Origin: a virus
Strand: one strand, 5' to 3'
Length of the DNA stretch: 39,168 nt
IMG/VR virus record: IMGVR_UViG_3300021425_000076
Location: 1-39,168 of that record
In this document: positions 6,193-33,238 of the stretch, piece by piece
How the letters are laid out: each line of letters begins with the position of its first letter
How positions within the stretch are numbered: position 1 is the stretch's first letter
Made by a program: the position numbers and the translations under genes
The notes under the pieces: generated by a model
What the model was told of the DNA's origin: nothing
The model's database searches: none
What the model saw: only the letters and a program-made list of their open reading frames with translations

Positions 6193-7155
6193 ATGCCTGT
6201 TCAAGGTTTTGACGACCGTAACATTCTCGGTCTTTTCGATATCAAGTCGTACGACGCTTTTCAGCGTTCGTGGGCCAGCGCCGTATCGTTCTATAACGGT
6301 ATGAGCGATCGTGCTGCGGAGGACTACGGCATTCTCGGTGCAAACTCCGAGATGCGTGAGTGGATCGGCGCTCGTCAGGGTCAGGTGCTTCGCAAGAAGT
6401 CCTACACGATCCAGAACGCCAAGTACGAATCCACACTGGCAATCCCGAAAGAAGAAGTCGAACGCGACAAATCGGGCTTGCTTGAGGCCCGCATGGGAAC
6501 ATTTGCCACCGACGCCACCGCAGGACATTGGGAGACTCTTGTTGAGAGCCTCATCAACAACGGTGCAACCGACACCTGCTACGACGGCGCTGCGTTCTTC
6601 AGCGCATCCCACTCGTGGGGTGACAGCGGCACGCAGAAAAACCTCCTGACTTCGAACGAGGTTTCAGCGCTGAATGTCAGCACGGTTGCCGCACCGACCC
6701 CGGTTGAAATGGCTCGCGCCATCCTTGGTGTTGTTGGTCACATGCTGACCTTCAAAAACGACAAGGGCCGGTTTGTCAACGGCAGCGCCCGCAACTTCCT
6801 CATCATGTGTCCGACTGTGAATTATTTCTCGGCGGCATCACAGGCGGTTGGTTCGGACATGCTGAGCGACAGCGGCACAATCGACAACCCGCTCAAGGGT
6901 CTTGGCGTGTCCGGCTTCAACTTCAACGTGACGCTTGACTCCAACATCACCGACACCGACGCCATCCACGTTATTCGTACCGATGGCGACCTTGGCGCGT
7001 TCATCCTTCAGGACGAACAAGCCCCGGAACTGTCGATTCTCGGCCCCGGCTCGGATTATTACTTCGACAACGACGCCTACAAGGTTGGTGTCAACGCCCG
7101 TCGCGGCGCTGGCTATGGCCTGTGGGAATATGCGGCGAACGCAACCCTGTCCTAA
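6193..7155 (+). CDS. Major capsid protein (Mu gpT-like)
   Basis: A 320-aa shell protein. The segment ATDTCYDGAAFFSASHSWGD (about 122-141) is the hallmark seen in Mu gpT-type major head subunits, where a YDG.pFF...H motif is conserved. N-terminal ANSEMREWIGARQGQVLRK also fits this family. The C-terminus (SDYYFDNDAYKVGVNARRG) resembles the family's exposed R-G-Y end. The RBS (GAGAAAGGA, about 7 bases upstream) is strong. The 86-base gap before it holds a small CTCGC-gtg-GCGAG hairpin at 6126-6138. The capsid is Mu-like whereas portal and protease are lambda-like, so the head module is mosaic. Confidence 0.9.
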   Translation: MPVQGFDDRNILGLFDIKSYDAFQRSWASAVSFYNGMSDRAAEDYGILGANSEMREWIGARQGQVLRKKSYTIQNAKYESTLAIPKEEVERDKSGLLEARMGTFATDATAGHWETLVESLINNGATDTCYDGAAFFSASHSWGDSGTQKNLLTSNEVSALNVSTVAAPTPVEMARAILGVVGHMLTFKNDKGRFVNGSARNFLIMCPTVNYFSAASQAVGSDMLSDSGTIDNPLKGLGVSGFNFNVTLDSNITDTDAIHVIRTDGDLGAFILQDEQAPELSILGPGSDYYFDNDAYKVGVNARRGAGYGLWEYAANATLS

Positions 7156-7239: not shown

Positions 7240-7521
7240 ATGGCAAAGAAACGAACGATTGAAGACTTGCAGAACAACTACGACGCGCTTGCGGCTGAAT
7301 GCTCGCGGCTGTCACAGTTGAAGCAAAAATCGCAAAAGGAAATCGAGAAGCGCCTTCGTGAACAGATTACGAAGGAAGTCGCCGCCGAAGTGGTTGAACT
7401 CGATGGGCTGATGAAGCAAAAGCATGAGGCGCGCATGGCTCTCGACAAGGCGATTGCCGAAAAGGAAGCCGCCGACACCAAAGAACGCGAGCGCCTTTTG
7501 TCGCAGGTCGGCAAAAAGTGA
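7240..7521 (+). CDS. Small coiled-coil protein, unknown
   Basis: I do not recognise this 93-aa protein. It is almost entirely charged helix (KKRTIEDLQNNYDALAAE, then KQKSQKEIEKRLREQITKEV), with heptad-like spacing over the whole length and no cysteine apart from one near residue 25. It is the first gene after the capsid hairpin, and its TGA overlaps the GTG of the glycosyltransferase gene, so it belongs to that transcription unit. A virion head-fibre or scaffold-like role is possible but unsupported. Confidence 0.75.
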   Translation: MAKKRTIEDLQNNYDALAAECSRLSQLKQKSQKEIEKRLREQITKEVAAEVVELDGLMKQKHEARMALDKAIAEKEAADTKERERLLSQVGKK

Positions 7522-8144
7522 CCGACGCCACCCGCATCGTGTTCGTCGCCTTCTACACCGAGGGTACGCGATATCAGCAGGAGGCGGCGCGGCTCCAAGG
7601 TTCAATGCTGCGTGCAAACCTACGGTATGACGTTCGCGCGGTCCCCGACCTTGGCTCTTGGGTGGCGAATACAAAGCAGACTGCGGGGTTCATCCTTCGC
7701 ATGATGGATACCTACCCCGACCTTCCGCTTGTGTACCTGGATGCAGACGCTTACGTGTGGTCGCAGCCGTCTTTGTTTTGGTCGATGGATTGCGACATTG
7801 CTTTTCACCGAAGGCGCGGCGTGGAACTGCTGAATGGCACGTTATACATCGCACCAACGGCAAAGGCGCGTGAAGCGATTGCGACCTACGCGCGGTTGTG
7901 CAGTGAACAGGCAGAACACCGCAACGAGCAGGCTTTGCTTGACGAGGCGCTTAAGGTGGTGGCTGGCGTGCGGGTGGGTGAATTGCCCGCGTCGTACTGC
8001 TGGATACACGACATCATGGCGAAGGATATCGGCGACGAACAGCCGGTGATTGAACATTTGCAGGCATCGCGCGACGTAAACGACACGGGGGCGTTTTACG
8101 AGAATCGCCAACGACGCCTCGCGGAGATTGCAGGGAATGGCTAA
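7518..8144 (+). CDS. Putative glycosyltransferase, GT-A fold with DxD
   Basis: 208 aa. A Rossmann-like start (TRIVFVAFYTEGTRY) is followed by PLVYLDADAYVW with the DAD metal/nucleotide-sugar motif at about 75-77, and by LLNGTLYIAPT, like the LNtGv-type motif of GT8/GT77-like enzymes. It should transfer a sugar from a nucleotide-sugar donor; acceptor unknown. Start is GTG overlapping the upstream TGA. It is the first enzyme in a run of glycan-type genes placed between capsid and neck genes. The nucleotide-diphospho-sugar transferase fold is fairly sure, the family is not. Confidence 0.75.
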   Translation: MTDATRIVFVAFYTEGTRYQQEAARLQGSMLRANLRYDVRAVPDLGSWVANTKQTAGFILRMMDTYPDLPLVYLDADAYVWSQPSLFWSMDCDIAFHRRRGVELLNGTLYIAPTAKAREAIATYARLCSEQAEHRNEQALLDEALKVVAGVRVGELPASYCWIHDIMAKDIGDEQPVIEHLQASRDVNDTGAFYENRQRRLAEIAGNG

Positions 8145-8748
8145 GCGAACGAAAAAGAAAACGAACGCGCCGAAGCCTACGGGCCTCACGCTTGACGACT
8201 ACCTTGCTGGCATCAAGTCGGGCAAGTACCCGCAGCCGATGCACGGTGGCGACGGCAGACCCCCCGGATGGTTTACCGACGACCAGGGGCGCGCGTACAT
8301 GGCCGAAGTCGCCGAGATTCGCAACGGTGTTGTGGTCGAGGTCGGCTGCTATATGGGCCGGTCCATGTCATGGATTGCACCATCCTGCATTGATAACGGC
8401 AATACGCTGGTTGCCGTTGACCCGTGGGAGAATTGCCCGCGATGCGAGTTTGAGGCGTTTATGCGCGACGGTGGGTGGCTCGACCACATCACCATCATGC
8501 AGTCGCGAAGCGTTGACGCCGCGAAAAAGTTTGACGATGGCACGGTAAGCCTATGTTTTATCGACGCATGGCACGACTACGAAAGCGTGAAGGCTGACAT
8601 TGACGCATGGTGGCCAACGGTAAAAGCGGGCGGCGTGCTGATGGGCCACGACTATGCAGATGGCGGCTATGGCGTGAAGCGTGCGGTCGATGAAAAGTTC
8701 GCCGGAATGGTGCGCGAAGCATGCGGCATGTTTGTTGTTCGCAAGTAA
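8137..8748 (+). CDS. Class I SAM-dependent methyltransferase (Methyltransf_24 type)
   Basis: 203 aa. Motif I GVVVEVGCYMGRSMSWI (64-80) binds S-adenosylmethionine. The acidic end of strand 2 is VAVDPWE (92-98), and LCFIDAWHDYESVKADI (139-155) with VKAGGVLMGHDYAD is the pattern of Methyltransf_24 enzymes, often encoded with glycosyltransferases and thought to O-methylate sugars. The first 15 residues are very basic. ATG at 8137 is chosen over the TTG at 8128 because GGAG at 8123-8126 is then suitably placed. It overlaps the upstream gene by 8 bases. Confidence 0.85.
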   Translation: MAKRTKKKTNAPKPTGLTLDDYLAGIKSGKYPQPMHGGDGRPPGWFTDDQGRAYMAEVAEIRNGVVVEVGCYMGRSMSWIAPSCIDNGNTLVAVDPWENCPRCEFEAFMRDGGWLDHITIMQSRSVDAAKKFDDGTVSLCFIDAWHDYESVKADIDAWWPTVKAGGVLMGHDYADGGYGVKRAVDEKFAGMVREACGMFVVRK

Positions 8749-8763
8749 AAGGGAATAACGGGA

Positions 8764-9339
8764 ATGATGTTGAGCGACAAACATCGGTTTGCATTTAGCG
8801 CAATCACCAAGACGGCTACGCAGAGCGTTTTGCAGGTTTTGCGTGAGCATTACCACGGCTACCTTGAGGGCGGCGTTGCGATGCACAGCATGAAGCCACC
8901 TGCACGCGCTGCGGAATACTTCACGTTTACCGTGTGCCGCAACCCCTACGACCGTGCGGTGTCGCTTTGGTGGTCAACGTGCAAACGAGATGTTGACAAA
9001 TACGGGTTTCGCGCGAAGTGTCCACGTGCCGACGATTTTACGTCGTTTATGAAATGGGTGGCGACCACGCGACCCGACCATGAGTTGACGCGCCCGCAAT
9101 GGCTGCATATTCACGGCGTTCGTATTGACCGTGTGTTGCGGTTCGAACACCTCGCCGACGATTTTAAGTCGCTTCCGTTTTATTCGGGTGAGCCTGCCGA
9201 GTGGCCGCGAAACAACACGACCATTGAGAACCGCTTGCCGTGGCAGCAATACATGAGCCGCGATTCGGTTCGATGGATTCACGAATGGTGCGGGCTTGAT
9301 TTTGACAAGTTCGGATACGAACGCATTGAGTGGTCCTAA
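8764..9339 (+). CDS. Sulfotransferase (PAPS-dependent, Sulfotransfer_2-like)
   Basis: 191 aa. The 5'-phosphosulfate loop is visible at about 12-21 (SAITKTATQS, equivalent to the PKtGsTs loop), and the 3'-phosphate motif is FTVCRNPYDRAVSLWW (55-70) with the canonical R-N-P-x-x-R-x-x-S spacing. This family transfers sulfate from PAPS to hydroxyls, commonly on glycans. The protein is short but holds both cofactor motifs, so it should be intact. PAPS must come from the host. Its stop overlaps the next ATG as TAATG, so it is translationally coupled to the GT29 fusion. Confidence 0.87.
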   Translation: MMLSDKHRFAFSAITKTATQSVLQVLREHYHGYLEGGVAMHSMKPPARAAEYFTFTVCRNPYDRAVSLWWSTCKRDVDKYGFRAKCPRADDFTSFMKWVATTRPDHELTRPQWLHIHGVRIDRVLRFEHLADDFKSLPFYSGEPAEWPRNNTTIENRLPWQQYMSRDSVRWIHEWCGLDFDKFGYERIEWS

Positions 9340-10571
9340 TGATTGTCGCCGCTTTTATTTCCCGCGACGACGATTGGATTCTCCCGCATAAGCTGCGCGT
9401 TTATAGCCAGTTTTGCGACCGCGTGTTTGTCCTGCTGGATCGTTCGCCGCAATCCGCTTTGATATGCGACCGCTTCGCAAAGGTTGAGTGCAGGCACTAC
9501 GAATCAGCCGATTACCCTATGGGTGATGATGGTCCGCGATGGGACGAGGGCGCAATGCGTCAAGCTGTGTGGGATTGGGCTGTCGAGTGCGGCCCGTCTT
9601 ACGTTGTGCTTGGCGACACCGACGAAATACCAACCCCCGCGATTGCGTGGTGGTTGCTTGACGGCATGGGTTCTGACGCTGGCGTTCAATGCTGGTATGC
9701 GGATTGGGTGAACCTGATCCACGACGCTGGACACGCTATCGGCGGCGCTTCGGCGTGGTCATATCAGCGAACGGACAACAACAAAAAGGGGCTGGTGGTC
9801 AAATATGATCCCGCCCGCGAATATCGTTACCGACTTGGCACGCGACACGTTCGCATGGAGCCGTCGCCACTTTCCGAAAACTCGACGCGCCACGATAACG
9901 AACACCGCATCGGACCTGTACCGTTAGTTCATTACCGATGGGCGAATTGGTCGCGTTGGTGCGCGTCTGAAATGTCGGGCCTGCCCGCGTATCAGCCTTG
10001 GCCTCCTGCCGACTCTAAAATCGTGGAAGTCCCGCTGCATATGTTGTGGCGATGGGACGCCGACAAGCTAATCGAAAGCCTGCCCGATGACGTAGCCGTT
10101 GTTGGCAATGGCCCGTGTTTCGGCAAGGGCGAGCAGATCGACTCGCATTCGTGTGTTATCCGCTTCAACAACTGGAACACGGACGGCAATGAAAGCGATA
10201 TCGGCTCGCGCACCGACGTTTGGTGTACCAACACATGGGACGACGTTGCAATGCGTGATTGGTCGGGCGACATGCTGACCGTTACGACGCATGACGAAGA
10301 CGCGGCGAGGTCCAACCGCTGGCTTGGCGCTTACCCGCACATGCACGTACCGAAGGTTTCATGGACGGATGCGGCACGAGCGTTAAAGCCTATCAAGCCT
10401 TCAACGGGTTTGGTATTGCTTCACCGCTTAGCGCAAACGAACAAGCGCATCACTGCTTATGGCTTCGACGGTCTGGTGGGTGGTCACTACGGCAATCCGC
10501 AGCACGAACACGATCACCCGCAAGAGTCGCGGGCGCTGGCGTCGTTGGGTGCTTCGGTGGTGTTTGCGTGA
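9339..10571 (+). CDS. Glycosyltransferase fused to GT29 sialyltransferase domain
   Basis: A 410-aa two-domain enzyme. Residues 1-240 look like a GT2/GT92-type transferase (MIVAAFISRDDDWILPHKL, DxD-like VVLGDTDEIP at 89-98). Residues 251-410 carry the sialyl motifs: L-motif VAVVGNGPCFGKGEQIDSH plus VIRFNNW (252-279), S-motif KPSTGLVLLHRL to ITAYGFDG (353-378), and a HDHPQE element (391-396) that fits the HxxxxE VS motif. GT29 enzymes use CMP-sialic acid. ATG at 9339 is preferred over GTG at 9330 because of the TAATG overlap with the sulfotransferase. The last 58 bases overlap a minus-strand gene tail to tail. Confidence 0.85.
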   Translation: MIVAAFISRDDDWILPHKLRVYSQFCDRVFVLLDRSPQSALICDRFAKVECRHYESADYPMGDDGPRWDEGAMRQAVWDWAVECGPSYVVLGDTDEIPTPAIAWWLLDGMGSDAGVQCWYADWVNLIHDAGHAIGGASAWSYQRTDNNKKGLVVKYDPAREYRYRLGTRHVRMEPSPLSENSTRHDNEHRIGPVPLVHYRWANWSRWCASEMSGLPAYQPWPPADSKIVEVPLHMLWRWDADKLIESLPDDVAVVGNGPCFGKGEQIDSHSCVIRFNNWNTDGNESDIGSRTDVWCTNTWDDVAMRDWSGDMLTVTTHDEDAARSNRWLGAYPHMHVPKVSWTDAARALKPIKPSTGLVLLHRLAQTNKRITAYGFDGLVGGHYGNPQHEHDHPQESRALASLGASVVFA

Positions 10572-10780
10572 GTCCCGATAATCTTTGACGGCGGTTGTTT
10601 TTCAGACATTGCTTTATACAACTCAAGTCCGTTGTCTACTCCCGCGTTTTCGAGAAGTTCAAGAAAATCACCCCGGATACAGTCGGGGTCGTCGTCATAG
10701 TAAACCTCGCCCGCGTCAATAAACGTCTTTCGGAACGCATCAAACAACTGGCGAAGCGTGATTGTGTCGGTTTCTTTCAT
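10514..10780 (-). CDS. Small acidic protein on the minus strand, unknown
   Basis: 88 aa, not recognised. The sequence starts MKETDTITLRQLFDAFRK and has an acidic centre (YYDDDPDCIRGDFLELLENA) and a polar tail. Start is placed at 10780 because it follows the stop of the other minus-strand gene by 17 bases, with GCAGG in between as a modest RBS. It runs against the surrounding operon and its end overlaps the GT29 fusion gene by 58 bases. The amino-acid composition looks genuine, unlike the plus-strand frames over the same bases. Confidence 0.6.
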   Translation of the reverse strand: MKETDTITLRQLFDAFRKTFIDAGEVYYDDDPDCIRGDFLELLENAGVDNGLELYKAMSEKQPPSKIIGTHANTTEAPNDASARDSCG

Positions 10781-10797
10781 GGTGTTCTGCCTGCAAC

Positions 10798-11142
10798 TTA
10801 TGGGGTGCTTGCGTCCGAGTAATCCATCCACTCGAAAATGGCAAACGAAACTTTGGTCGCTGGAAAGTTCGCGGCCACAACAATGGACTCGCCACGATTC
10901 GGCGTGAACACATCCATTGGTATCCGTGTGAACTCCTCCCGGTATTCGGCTAACGGCTGCACGGTGATTTGGTATTCATTCGGCAGATATGAAATCCTAA
11001 CGGTTATTGGAACACGATCACCATTCGAGACTCTTAGCTCGCACGGCTCCAAACATCCGTTTGGCTTGCTCGGCGATATTGTCACTCGCGGTCTGTCCGA
11101 ATCAAGTTTTGTTGAAAATATTCCATTCATAGGCCGCATCAT
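10798..11142 (-). CDS. Beta-rich protein on the minus strand, unknown
   Basis: 114 aa from the chosen start (MMRPMNGIFSTKLDSDRP); an upstream ATG at 11187 would add 15 residues but overlap the divergent gene. Not recognised. It alternates hydrophobic and polar residues (VPITVRISYLPNEYQITVQPL, ESIVVAANFPATKVSFAIF), suggesting a single beta-sandwich domain. It precedes the 88-aa minus-strand gene by 17 bases, making a two-gene leftward unit. A TTGACA box on the minus strand lies at 11156-11151, but its spacing to a -10-like TATGAA is 19 bases, so a promoter is uncertain. Confidence 0.55.
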   Translation of the reverse strand: MMRPMNGIFSTKLDSDRPRVTISPSKPNGCLEPCELRVSNGDRVPITVRISYLPNEYQITVQPLAEYREEFTRIPMDVFTPNRGESIVVAANFPATKVSFAIFEWMDYSDASTP

Positions 11143-11156
11143 AAACCCGCTGTCAA

Positions 11157-11759
11157 GTGAAAGCCGCAATCCTAAACCCCGGCCCATCCCTGAACACGAC
11201 GTACAAGGGGCGACATGGCTATGACGTTGTAATCGGCGTCAACCGCACCATGCTCGCACACGACCTTGATTGGTGGGTGTGGATGGACACCAACCCGCCC
11301 ATGCCTCGCAGGGTATGGGAAGCACCCGACGATGAATGGAAGCGTGAGAAGCCGGCCACGGCCCCGCATCAGTTCACCACGGGGACCGGCGCGGAGTACC
11401 TCGAATCGCAAGACCTGCCGCGAAACGGAAACGTGTGGCGGTTCAACGATTATCAGGACTACATACCAAATCATTTGAAGTGGCACGTGTTCAGCGCAAC
11501 GGCGGCTATCTCGCTGGCGTTTCTGTTGGGCGCAACATCGGCAGACGTGTACGGCGCTGACATGCGGGGTGAATCGGACTTCGACGGTAGCCGTGATAAA
11601 CGAGACAACCGCGACGAAAAGCGTTGGCTGCGTGAGGCTGGAATCTGGAACGAAACAATCGCGTGGCTGTCGTTTAACGGCATGGCGGTGCGGCGCATAG
11701 TTCCGCAGGGTTTGTATCACGCGCCACGACCTGAAAGGCGAACGCATGGGATTGCTTGA
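11157..11759 (+). CDS. Rossmann-type glycosyltransferase-like protein (DUF115/GT42-like)
   Basis: 200 aa. The N-terminus MKAAILNPGPSLNTTYKGR with YDVVIGVNRTML and LDWWVWMDT is the G-x-G-P-S-L...D-x-V-x-x-x-N pattern shared by MptE/DUF115-like proteins and GT42-type sialyltransferases. A second segment (SATAAISLAFLLGATSADVY to GADMRG) matches the STG..A...A..LG...I...G.D pattern of the same fold. It may handle nucleotide-activated sugars, consistent with the cassette. Start is GTG without a clear RBS, so the exact start is unsure. It overlaps the neck gene by 14 bases. Confidence 0.6.
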   Translation: MKAAILNPGPSLNTTYKGRHGYDVVIGVNRTMLAHDLDWWVWMDTNPPMPRRVWEAPDDEWKREKPATAPHQFTTGTGAEYLESQDLPRNGNVWRFNDYQDYIPNHLKWHVFSATAAISLAFLLGATSADVYGADMRGESDFDGSRDKRDNRDEKRWLREAGIWNETIAWLSFNGMAVRRIVPQGLYHAPRPERRTHGIA

Positions 11760-30882: not shown

Positions 30883-32364
30883 ATGAGAACATCATTTGAT
30901 ACGGCGACGGCTGATAGCTACCGGCAATTTTTGCGGGTTAAGCGACTCCCGCAATACCGCATTGTGGGTCGCTCGGCGTGGTTCCCCGATGAGTATGCCG
31001 AACTAATTGGCAAAGACGCTGCGGACGCGGAAGATACCGACTATGAGCCGTGGCCGGGACTGTTTGACTATCAACGCGATATCGCGGCGCTCGCTATTCG
31101 CAAGCGTCGGTTTAGCGTGTTTGCTGATTGCGGCCTCGGAAAAACGCGTATCTTTTGTGAGTTTGCCCGCCACGTTGCGCAGCAAATCAAGCCGGGGCGG
31201 TGCGTGTTGATCGTGTCGCCGCTCATGGTTGTAAGCCAAACTATCGGCGAGGCCCATGAAGTGTACGGCGATGCTCTGCCGATGCGACGTATTGCCGCCA
31301 ACGAACTGAATGACTGGCTGGCTAACGGATCGGAATCCGTCGGCATCACAAACTACGACGCACTGACGGACGATATTGAACCGGGCAGGCTTGCGGGCCT
31401 CATCCTCGATGAGTCGTCTATGCTCAAGAGTCACTACGGAAAGTGGGGTCAAACGTGTCTGCGCCTTGGCAGCGGCCTTGAATGGAAGATGGCCTGCACC
31501 GGAACCCCCGCACCGAACGATCGGATTGAGTATGCGAACCACGCGGTATTTATGGGTGCGTTCCCAACCGTCAATGCATTTTTGGCCCGCTACTTTGTCA
31601 ATCGCGGGCAGACTGACAACCGCTGGGAATTGAAGCCGCATGCGCTGGACCCGTTCTATCGTTCAATTTCGCACTGGTCTATCTTCCTGACCAACCCCGC
31701 GACGTACGGGTGGAAAGATAACTGCGAAAACATCCCGCCGATCAATGTGCATATTCACGACGTACCCTTGACCGATGAGCAGCAGTCGCTCGCATTCGAT
31801 AAGACCGGATCGCTTTTTGCGGATCGCGTCGGCGGCATCACCGGGCGATCGGTCCTATCCCAAATCGCCAAGGGCTACTACAAAGGCAAACTTATCCCCA
31901 CGAACAAGTCGCACCACATCCGGGCGTTGGTCGATGAGTGGCCGAACGAATCAACCATTATTTGGTGTATCTACAATGCCGAACAGGACATCATGGCCGC
32001 GACGTTCCCCGGCGCGGCGAGTATCACGGGCGCGACACCGCTTGACGAGCGAGAGCGCAAGATTGCGGACTTCAAGGCTGGCCGCACGCGAATCCTAATC
32101 AGCAAGCCAAAGATTCTCGGATTCGGCCTTAACCTCCAGATCGCAACCCGTCAGGTATTCAGCGGATTACAAGACTCCTACGAAAGCTACTACCAAGCTG
32201 TGAAGCGGTCGAATCGCTACGGATCAACGCGCCCGCTCAACGTCCACATCCCAATCACCGATATCGAACGACCCATGATTGAAACCGTGCTGACCAAAGC
32301 GGCGCGGGTGCAACACGACACCGAACAACAGGAAAGGATTTTTAAGAATGCCTCTCATTCCTAA
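30883..32364 (+). CDS. SF2 helicase (SNF2/DEAD-like)
   Basis: 493 aa from ATG 30883 (AAGGA 8 bases before). Motif I ADCGLGKT (81-88), motif II LILDESS (173-179, DES rather than DEAH), motif III ACTGTPAPND (204-213), and the C-terminal lobe with motif VI QAVKRSNRYGSTRP. The pattern ITGATPLDERERKIADFKAG precedes it. This is the phage SNF2-like helicase type, often beside methyltransferase and replication genes. It may drive translocation on duplex DNA during replication, recombination or restriction. It overlaps the methylase by 17 bases. Confidence 0.9.
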   Translation: MRTSFDTATADSYRQFLRVKRLPQYRIVGRSAWFPDEYAELIGKDAADAEDTDYEPWPGLFDYQRDIAALAIRKRRFSVFADCGLGKTRIFCEFARHVAQQIKPGRCVLIVSPLMVVSQTIGEAHEVYGDALPMRRIAANELNDWLANGSESVGITNYDALTDDIEPGRLAGLILDESSMLKSHYGKWGQTCLRLGSGLEWKMACTGTPAPNDRIEYANHAVFMGAFPTVNAFLARYFVNRGQTDNRWELKPHALDPFYRSISHWSIFLTNPATYGWKDNCENIPPINVHIHDVPLTDEQQSLAFDKTGSLFADRVGGITGRSVLSQIAKGYYKGKLIPTNKSHHIRALVDEWPNESTIIWCIYNAEQDIMAATFPGAASITGATPLDERERKIADFKAGRTRILISKPKILGFGLNLQIATRQVFSGLQDSYESYYQAVKRSNRYGSTRPLNVHIPITDIERPMIETVLTKAARVQHDTEQQERIFKNASHS

Positions 32365-33238
32365 CGAGTCAGAATACGCCGTACATCATGGCGATTGCAT
32401 CACGCACATGCATGACATGCCGCCCGCGTCGGTGGATATGTCAGTGTTTAGCCCGCCGTTTCCGTCGCTCTACGCCTACACATCGAGCGAATCAGACCTC
32501 GGCAACAGCGACGACTTGCGCGGCGAAGCAAAGTTGCATCTGTCGTTTTTCTACAAAGCTCTGCGCCGCGTGGTCAAGCCGGGACGTGTGATATGCGTTC
32601 ACGTGATGCAGATCCCCCGGCTCAAGCGTAGCGGTGAAGTTGGCCTGCATGACTTTCGCGGCATGAACATCAAACTCGGCGAACGCGCCGGACTGGTTTA
32701 TGAGTACGACTGGTGCATCCGAAAGAATCCGCAATCACAGGCGATTCGAACAAGGTCACGTGAATTGCAATTCACCGGCCTTGAATCGGATCGCGCCAAG
32801 AGTCGCGGCGCATTGGCCGATTACATCATTAAATTCCGCGCCCCCGGCAACAACGAAACTCCCATCAAGTCAGAAGGTGACGTGAGCCGAAATGACTGGA
32901 TCGACTGGGCTGAATGTGCATGGCACGACATAAAAGAAACCGACACGTTGAACACGGCAGAGGCCAAGGGCGAGGACGACACAAAGCATATATGTCCGTT
33001 GCAGCTTGGCGTGATTGACAGGCTTGTGAGGCTCTACACAAACCCCGGCGAGATTGTTTTTAGCCCGTTCGCTGGCGTTGGCAGTGAGGGATATATCGCA
33101 CTGAAACACGGGCGGCGCTTCTACGGGTGCGAACTCAAGGATGAGTATTTTGATACGTGCCTATTGAATATGGAGCGGGCAATCGAGGCGCGGAAGTCGG
33201 AGCAAATGGGACTGTTCACGCCTGCGGAGGCGTCATGA
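32348..33238 (+). CDS. DNA methyltransferase (N4/N6, beta class)
   Basis: 296 aa. Catalytic motif IV SPPFPS (35-40) precedes FxGxG motif I (SPFAGVGSEGYIALKHGRRF, 239-258), i.e. permuted beta class order; SPPF suggests N4-cytosine or N6-adenine specificity. Other motifs: VDMSVF before IV, PGEIVFSPF. No adjoining recognition-domain subunit is seen, so target choice is internal. It may protect the phage genome from host restriction or work with the upstream nuclease and helicase. Confidence 0.92.
   Translation: MPLIPNESEYAVHHGDCITHMHDMPPASVDMSVFSPPFPSLYAYTSSESDLGNSDDLRGEAKLHLSFFYKALRRVVKPGRVICVHVMQIPRLKRSGEVGLHDFRGMNIKLGERAGLVYEYDWCIRKNPQSQAIRTRSRELQFTGLESDRAKSRGALADYIIKFRAPGNNETPIKSEGDVSRNDWIDWAECAWHDIKETDTLNTAEAKGEDDTKHICPLQLGVIDRLVRLYTNPGEIVFSPFAGVGSEGYIALKHGRRFYGCELKDEYFDTCLLNMERAIEARKSEQMGLFTPAEAS

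Follow-up and report, generated by a model that had tools for sequence, protein, structure and literature searches.

A compact GT29 sialyltransferase-family domain in a two-domain protein encoded among the late structural genes of a phage

The window, that is, the whole stretch of DNA that was analysed, is an IMG/VR virus record of 39,168 bases that lacks end repeats. Its genes run from terminase, portal, protease and a Mu gpT-like major capsid protein (MCP) through a possible DxD transferase, a Methyltransf_24 and a Sulfotransfer_2 protein to a fusion protein with a C-terminal GT29 domain, followed by two small opposite-strand ORFs, the ORF at 11157, and then neck and tail genes. The features of this region, with the evidence for each, are the following.

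6193-7155, plus strand: major capsid protein, Mu gpT-like (PF10124, 7.5e-34; phrog_371, 5.9e-42)
7518-8144, plus strand: possible glycosyltransferase, recognised by eye (VYLDADAYVWSQ, DxD), with a relative in the uncultured phage LR756500 (3e-20)
8137-8748, plus strand: Methyltransf_24, SAM-dependent methyltransferase (PF13578, 5.8e-24)
8764-9339, plus strand: Sulfotransfer_2 sulfotransferase, overlapping the start of the GT29 gene (PF03567, 2.6e-9)
9339-10571, plus strand: two-domain protein of 410 aa (single open frame)
9339-10058, plus strand: N-terminal region, residues 1-240, possible GT-A type glycosyltransferase (motif, predicted secondary structure)
9615-9626, plus strand: DTDE motif, residues 93-96 (sequence)
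10086-10568, plus strand: GT29 domain, residues ~250-410 (PF00777, independent profile, AF2 model, PDB fold search)
10092-10214, plus strand: sialylmotif L, residues 252-292, VAVVGNG..IDSHSCVIRFNNWNTDGNESDIGSRT (alignments, Pfam)
10398-10469, plus strand: sialylmotif S, residues 354-377, PSTGLVLLHRLAQTNKRITAYGFD (alignments, profile alignment)
10485-10496, plus strand: motif III, H383-Y384-G-N (HYGN), with the acidic fourth residue missing (alignments)
10509-10526, plus strand: motif VS, H391-x4-E396 (alignments)
10514-11187, minus strand: two small ORFs between the GT29 gene and the 11157 ORF (ORF positions)
11157-11759, plus strand: NPGPSL..SATAAISLAF..ADVYGAD protein, with a 98% identical copy behind GT29 in the related contig L002
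12069-12707, plus strand: neck or tail completion protein (phrog_27, 2.7e-23)

The gene boundaries given in the preliminary description of this DNA are correct: the ATG at 9339 overlaps the TGA of the preceding sulfotransferase gene (TGATG), and the stop codon ends at 10571. The description also placed the gene in a phage structural region, which is borne out by the MCP upstream and the neck and tail genes downstream, and the GT29 gene shares a glycan-decoration cassette with the Methyltransf_24 and Sulfotransfer_2 genes between the major capsid and neck genes. The possible glycosyltransferase at 7518-8144 has no Pfam match, and its kinship with the Nucleotid_trans protein of another viral contig, L014, is undetectable.

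On the downstream side, L002 retains the end of the GT29 gene and the 11157 homologue, and the intervening stretch differs from that of the window. Because both genes are kept while the DNA between them differs, this part of the genome is a variable decoration locus inside a fixed structural block, with the region of small opposite-strand ORFs as a site of gene exchange. The 11157-11759 ORF itself belongs to no Pfam family, has no meaningful NCBIfam match and, besides the L002 copy, no close relative. By eye, its Rossmann-like start (NPGPSL) and a stretch resembling motif S give it a faint likeness to the GT29/GT42 superfamily, of whose fold the product is possibly a far relative.

Judged by profiles and by predicted fold, residues ~249-405 of the 410-aa protein are a true member of GT29, the animal-type sialyltransferase family. 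Pfam PF00777 matches the whole protein at 3.6e-10 with 40.1 bits, against a cut-off of 23, and the C-terminal domain alone with 43.7 bits. A profile built from relatives, leaving out the window sequence and its near-twin L002, scores the domain at 72 bits over the full domain length, the best of 2000 shuffled copies reaching 5.6 bits. The L, S and VS sialylmotifs, described earlier as readable in the C-terminal 160 residues, could be located residue by residue in alignments and in the profile alignment, intact and with the order and spacing of GT29, and above chance: the DNA pattern for motif L has a single match in the window, whereas 100 shuffles gave none. Motif III (H-Y-aromatic-acidic) is partial, with H383 and Y384 kept and followed by G-N. 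H383, H391 and E396 are common to all 18 sequences of one GT29 alignment, and the latter two residues are invariant among all aligned viral and bacterial GT29. Identity to the IMG/VR relatives is mostly 21-28%, with L, VS and both histidines kept throughout and S in most. The cysteines of the L-S disulfide and a membrane anchor are absent from the window protein.

A viral GT29 profile that includes the window recovers ST3Gal1 at 6e-29 across the whole domain. The AlphaFold2 model of the domain, which is template-free yet was computed from an input alignment of GT29 relatives, has a pLDDT of 77 and a pTM of 0.78. All 30 Foldseek matches in the PDB with E <= 1e-3 are GT29 sialyltransferases, and the VIA-align Z scores are 13.3 for ST3Gal1, 12.5 for ST6GalNAc2 and ST8SiaIII and 12.4 for ST6Gal1, followed by the GT42 enzyme CstI. 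Membership in GT42 (CstI/CstII) was considered and rejected, CstII being reached only at E 0.06-0.3 compared with 6e-29 for ST3Gal1, and the CstI fold scoring Z 11.0 compared with 13.3. The outcome that would have spoken against the family assignment, a missing GT29 match together with a different fold, is thus contradicted both by the Pfam match, which lies above the gathering score, and by the predicted fold. Sequence and model together show the C-terminal half to be a compact GT29 transferase, with inverting CMP-sugar transfer as its predicted activity, and the phage enzyme as a whole would be cytoplasmic.

The first half of the protein is more difficult to interpret. It had been described as another glycosyltransferase that, fused to GT29, could build a two-sugar unit; the 240 residues at the N-terminus do contain a DxD motif, but their identity as a transferase, and with it the two-sugar unit, found no backing in homology searches, all of which were negative. 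Residues 1-240 have no significant homologue in Pfam, PHROGs, NCBIfam, the PDB, phages or viral contigs (IMG/VR). The candidates that did surface were discarded: a match to Pseudomonas phage Littlefix is weak (30%, E 1), two bacterial matches (L054, L055) are due to chance and fall outside real genes, and the structure-search rows for residues 1-123 are of mixed folds, with Z <= 6.7, and uninformative. Given this lack of homologues, the region could instead be a non-catalytic, acceptor-binding or structural domain, which would make the protein a monofunctional GT29. Such a reading is in line with the bacterial GT29 proteins L028, L033 and L053, which bear N-terminal extensions that are helical-looking by eye and seem non-catalytic; no comparable extension was found among the other viral GT29 proteins examined. 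However, the DTDE motif follows a predicted strand-helix alternation that would suit GT-A (model confidence there is mostly pLDDT < 50), and in a profile comparison with the Glycos_transf_2 protein of L014, which stayed below significance, the DxD regions of the two proteins were paired. We therefore consider a monofunctional enzyme possible but not the likelier interpretation, and treat the N-terminal half as a putative GT-A type transferase.

The fusion rests on a single contig, since the near-identical L002 begins only at residue 255 of the window protein, and one might suspect that an assembly or base-calling artefact merged two genes, the N-terminal half being known from this contig only. 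We regard this as improbable: the ORF is a single open frame of 413 codons, codon-position GC is even over both halves, including the junction, and similar to that of other late genes, and no Shine-Dalgarno-like start was found near residue 240. The product of ORF 9339-10571 is a real phage GT29 of an uncommon kind, and its domain arrangement is new.

Relatives were sought with DNA motif patterns rather than with a conserved-stretch search, because an alignment of 15 viral GT29 contained no sufficiently conserved stretch. With the pattern for sialylmotif L, 20 stretches were picked up in IMG/VR, and every one of them encodes a GT29-like protein, so that the earlier view of GT29 as rare in viruses needs adjustment: phages carrying it are less isolated than assumed. 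The viral sequences fall, by eye, into 11 groups (window/L002; L014/L021; L010 type; L004; L006; L007; L008; L013; L018; L035; L036). In eight of these, genes for CMP-ulosonate synthesis (NeuB, NeuA or KdsB-type) lie near GT29, several within 100 bp; the count was made within limited flanks, such that absence in the other three groups is no proof. In two related phages (L014 and L021/L038), portal, major head protein, Glycos_transf_2, Nucleotid_trans-like and GT29 genes occur in this order and are followed by NeuB, a NeuC-type epimerase and a CTP_transf_3 cytidylyltransferase; this full NeuB-NeuC-NeuA type cassette stands right behind the stand-alone GT29, past the MCP gene (L014, 8013-10707; L021, 526-3265). 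NeuB is also found near GT29 in L004, L007, L013, L018 and the phage LR756508, and CTP_transf_3 in L004, L008, L013 and L036, the last copy being KdsB-like by eye; NeuB and a CMP-sugar synthetase are linked to the transferase in L004, L013, L014 and L021. With the L014 NeuB as query, only 3 of 50,697 phage records gave matches, LR756508 among them.

Other members of this set differ in layout. The uncultured phage LR756508 (484 kb) holds a large glycan island, with four clustered GT29 genes, NeuB and GDP-sugar (fucose type) genes at 1221-8037 of L035 (LR756508.1:318809-331958). A 170-kb viral contig encodes GT29 and a KdsB-like cytidylyltransferase with a homing-endonuclease-like ORF between them (L036, 2139-4210). 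A single phage type, represented by eleven contigs, has a solitary GT29 gene of 180 aa (L010, 4026-4568; also L003, L005, L011 and L017), which in the contigs read in detail sits inside the packaging-to-tail block with no sugar-synthesis genes visible.

GT29 has been described mostly in eukaryotes and is rare in bacteria. The family is thought to have reached eukaryotes from bacteria (PMC5811610), and the open-licence literature yielded no article on a tailed-phage GT29. In a tree of 28 rows, the window shares a group with the viral sequences L036, L014/L021 and the L010 type, and bacterial sequences and ST3Gal1 fall outside it; the support of 92/89 for this viral grouping is under the strict mark. 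Phylogeny, which had been proposed as a check, thus places the domain with viral sequences only. Typical of the viral group is motif L in its RFNN[FWY] form, for which genome_contigs (84,980 species) gave no match. The general L pattern has 12 matches there, seven of them in GT29; matches in Kordia, Acidobacteria and Oscillatoriales genomes lie outside GT29 and appear to be fortuitous. The label virus-only is limited to the exact RFNN[FWY] pattern, because bacterial L053 has a related IRFNNY without DVG. In this small-genome bacterium of the Rhodovulum class, an RFNNY-type GT29 domain follows a helical-looking N-terminal region (L053, 715-2040). Within that class, GT29 occurs in 2 of 385 genomes, one of which is the genome picked as centre.

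From the family and from the CMP-ulosonate genes near relatives, we infer that the GT29 half would take a CMP-activated 2-keto-3-deoxy sugar acid from the host, either Kdo or a nonulosonic acid (sialic, legionaminic), and move it onto an acceptor glycan. Neither NeuB nor a cytidylyltransferase was found in the window, and therefore the host would have to supply the donor, which we assume it does. The proposal that the donor is CMP-sialic or a related acid from the host is plausible in view of the NeuB, NeuA and KdsB-type genes by relatives, but sialic acid and Kdo are indistinguishable here. CMP-Kdo would be as likely a donor as CMP-nonulosonate, because it is present in LPS-bearing hosts and because CMP-Kdo transferase activity has been proposed for the plant GT29 RCKT1. 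As RCKT1 indicates, GT29 members can use other donors (PMC11288761). The N-terminal half may, through its putative GT-A type domain, add the preceding sugar, and two further products of this late operon, the sulfotransferase and the methyltransferase, could help to build an acidic, decorated short glycan.

The position of the gene suggests a virion protein, of the capsid or the tail, as the most likely acceptor, although it is equally compatible with alteration of the host surface, the main rival to virion decoration. Phage-borne glycosyltransferases often target the host O-antigen, and the same chemistry applied to host LPS or capsule would block superinfection or protect the infected cell, in keeping with the whole glycan island of LR756508 (four GT29, NeuB and GDP-fucose type genes). 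However, nothing was recognised as a membrane protein, a flippase or a moron-like promoter context, the GT29 gene overlaps its upstream neighbour within the late structural operon, and unrelated phages also have GT29 in the structural block, after the MCP in L014 and L038 and inside the run of packaging to tail genes in the L010-type phages. A host-surface acceptor accordingly strikes us as a real but minority prospect. Much less credible still is glycosylation of phage DNA (base hypermodification), which we consider very improbable: DNA-glycosylating phage enzymes are known and the window has a DNA methyltransferase-like gene at 32348-33238, but no hypermodification biosynthesis gene was recognised, the neighbouring methyl- and sulfotransferase suit a glycan, and the donors of GT29 enzymes are CMP-keto-acids.

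Overall, we see about an even chance that a late phage transferase caps a glycan with a keto-acid sugar, acting together with N-terminal sugar addition, sulfotransferase and methyltransferase on an acceptor that is likely the virion. A broader proposal, under which tailed phages sialylate or Kdo-decorate their virions through a virus-specific compact GT29, some with a full CMP-nonulosonate pathway and the present one with a bifunctional hexose-transferase-GT29 protein, is decidedly more speculative. Among tailed phages, mycobacteriophages are known to have glycosylated virions (Freeman et al. 2023, as cited in PMC11256854); virion glycosylation with ulosonic acids was not found in the searched literature. 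Since GT29 and virion glycosylation have each been described before, the ORF is no categorical novelty. The viral GT29 branch and its tie to phage-borne synthesis of the CMP-sialate type is a more interesting result than the single protein: the existence of a largely viral branch in which CMP-ulosonate genes accompany GT29 suggests that bacterial viruses build sialic-acid-like caps, and it is probable that some phages finish a glycan, which may be one on their own particles, with acidic sugars of the sialic acid type. Such caps would bear on phage-host recognition, on virion shielding and on the origin and spread of GT29, and the very small soluble domains (about 160-180 aa) are on offer for biochemistry.

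With the eukaryotic GT29 enzymes ST3Gal1, ST8SiaIII, ST6GalNAc2 and ST6Gal1, the window domain shares the sequence family, sialylmotifs L, S and VS and the fold (Z 12-13). In contrast to these GT29 sialyltransferases of ~270 residues, it is about 160 residues long, anchor-free and devoid of the L-S disulfide cysteines, has an incomplete motif III, is fused behind another region and is phage-encoded. GT29 domains of eukaryotic viruses (Mimiviridae ChoanoV1, herpesviruses, squirrelpox) are likewise viral and appear as structural matches, but their hosts are eukaryotic. Bacterial GT29 is similar in that the L-S disulfide pair and the membrane anchor are absent, as reported for 23 sequences (PMC5811610), and L024, L025, L028 and L031-L034 also have the motifs and the missing disulfide pair in common with the window, which nevertheless groups with viral sequences only and has the L form that genome_contigs lack. 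The plant proteins RCKT1/MGP2 share the GT29 domain, but are eukaryotic Golgi enzymes acting on pectin, the CMP-Kdo transferase activity of RCKT1 being proposed from mutant analysis (PMC11288761). In overall design, counterparts would be the bifunctional hexosyl-/sialyltransferases of meningococcal capsules, of GT97 type (PMC5811610), which combine hexose and CMP-sialic acid transfer in one chain; the window protein would work alike, with a putative hexose part and with a sialyltransferase part from a different family, GT29.
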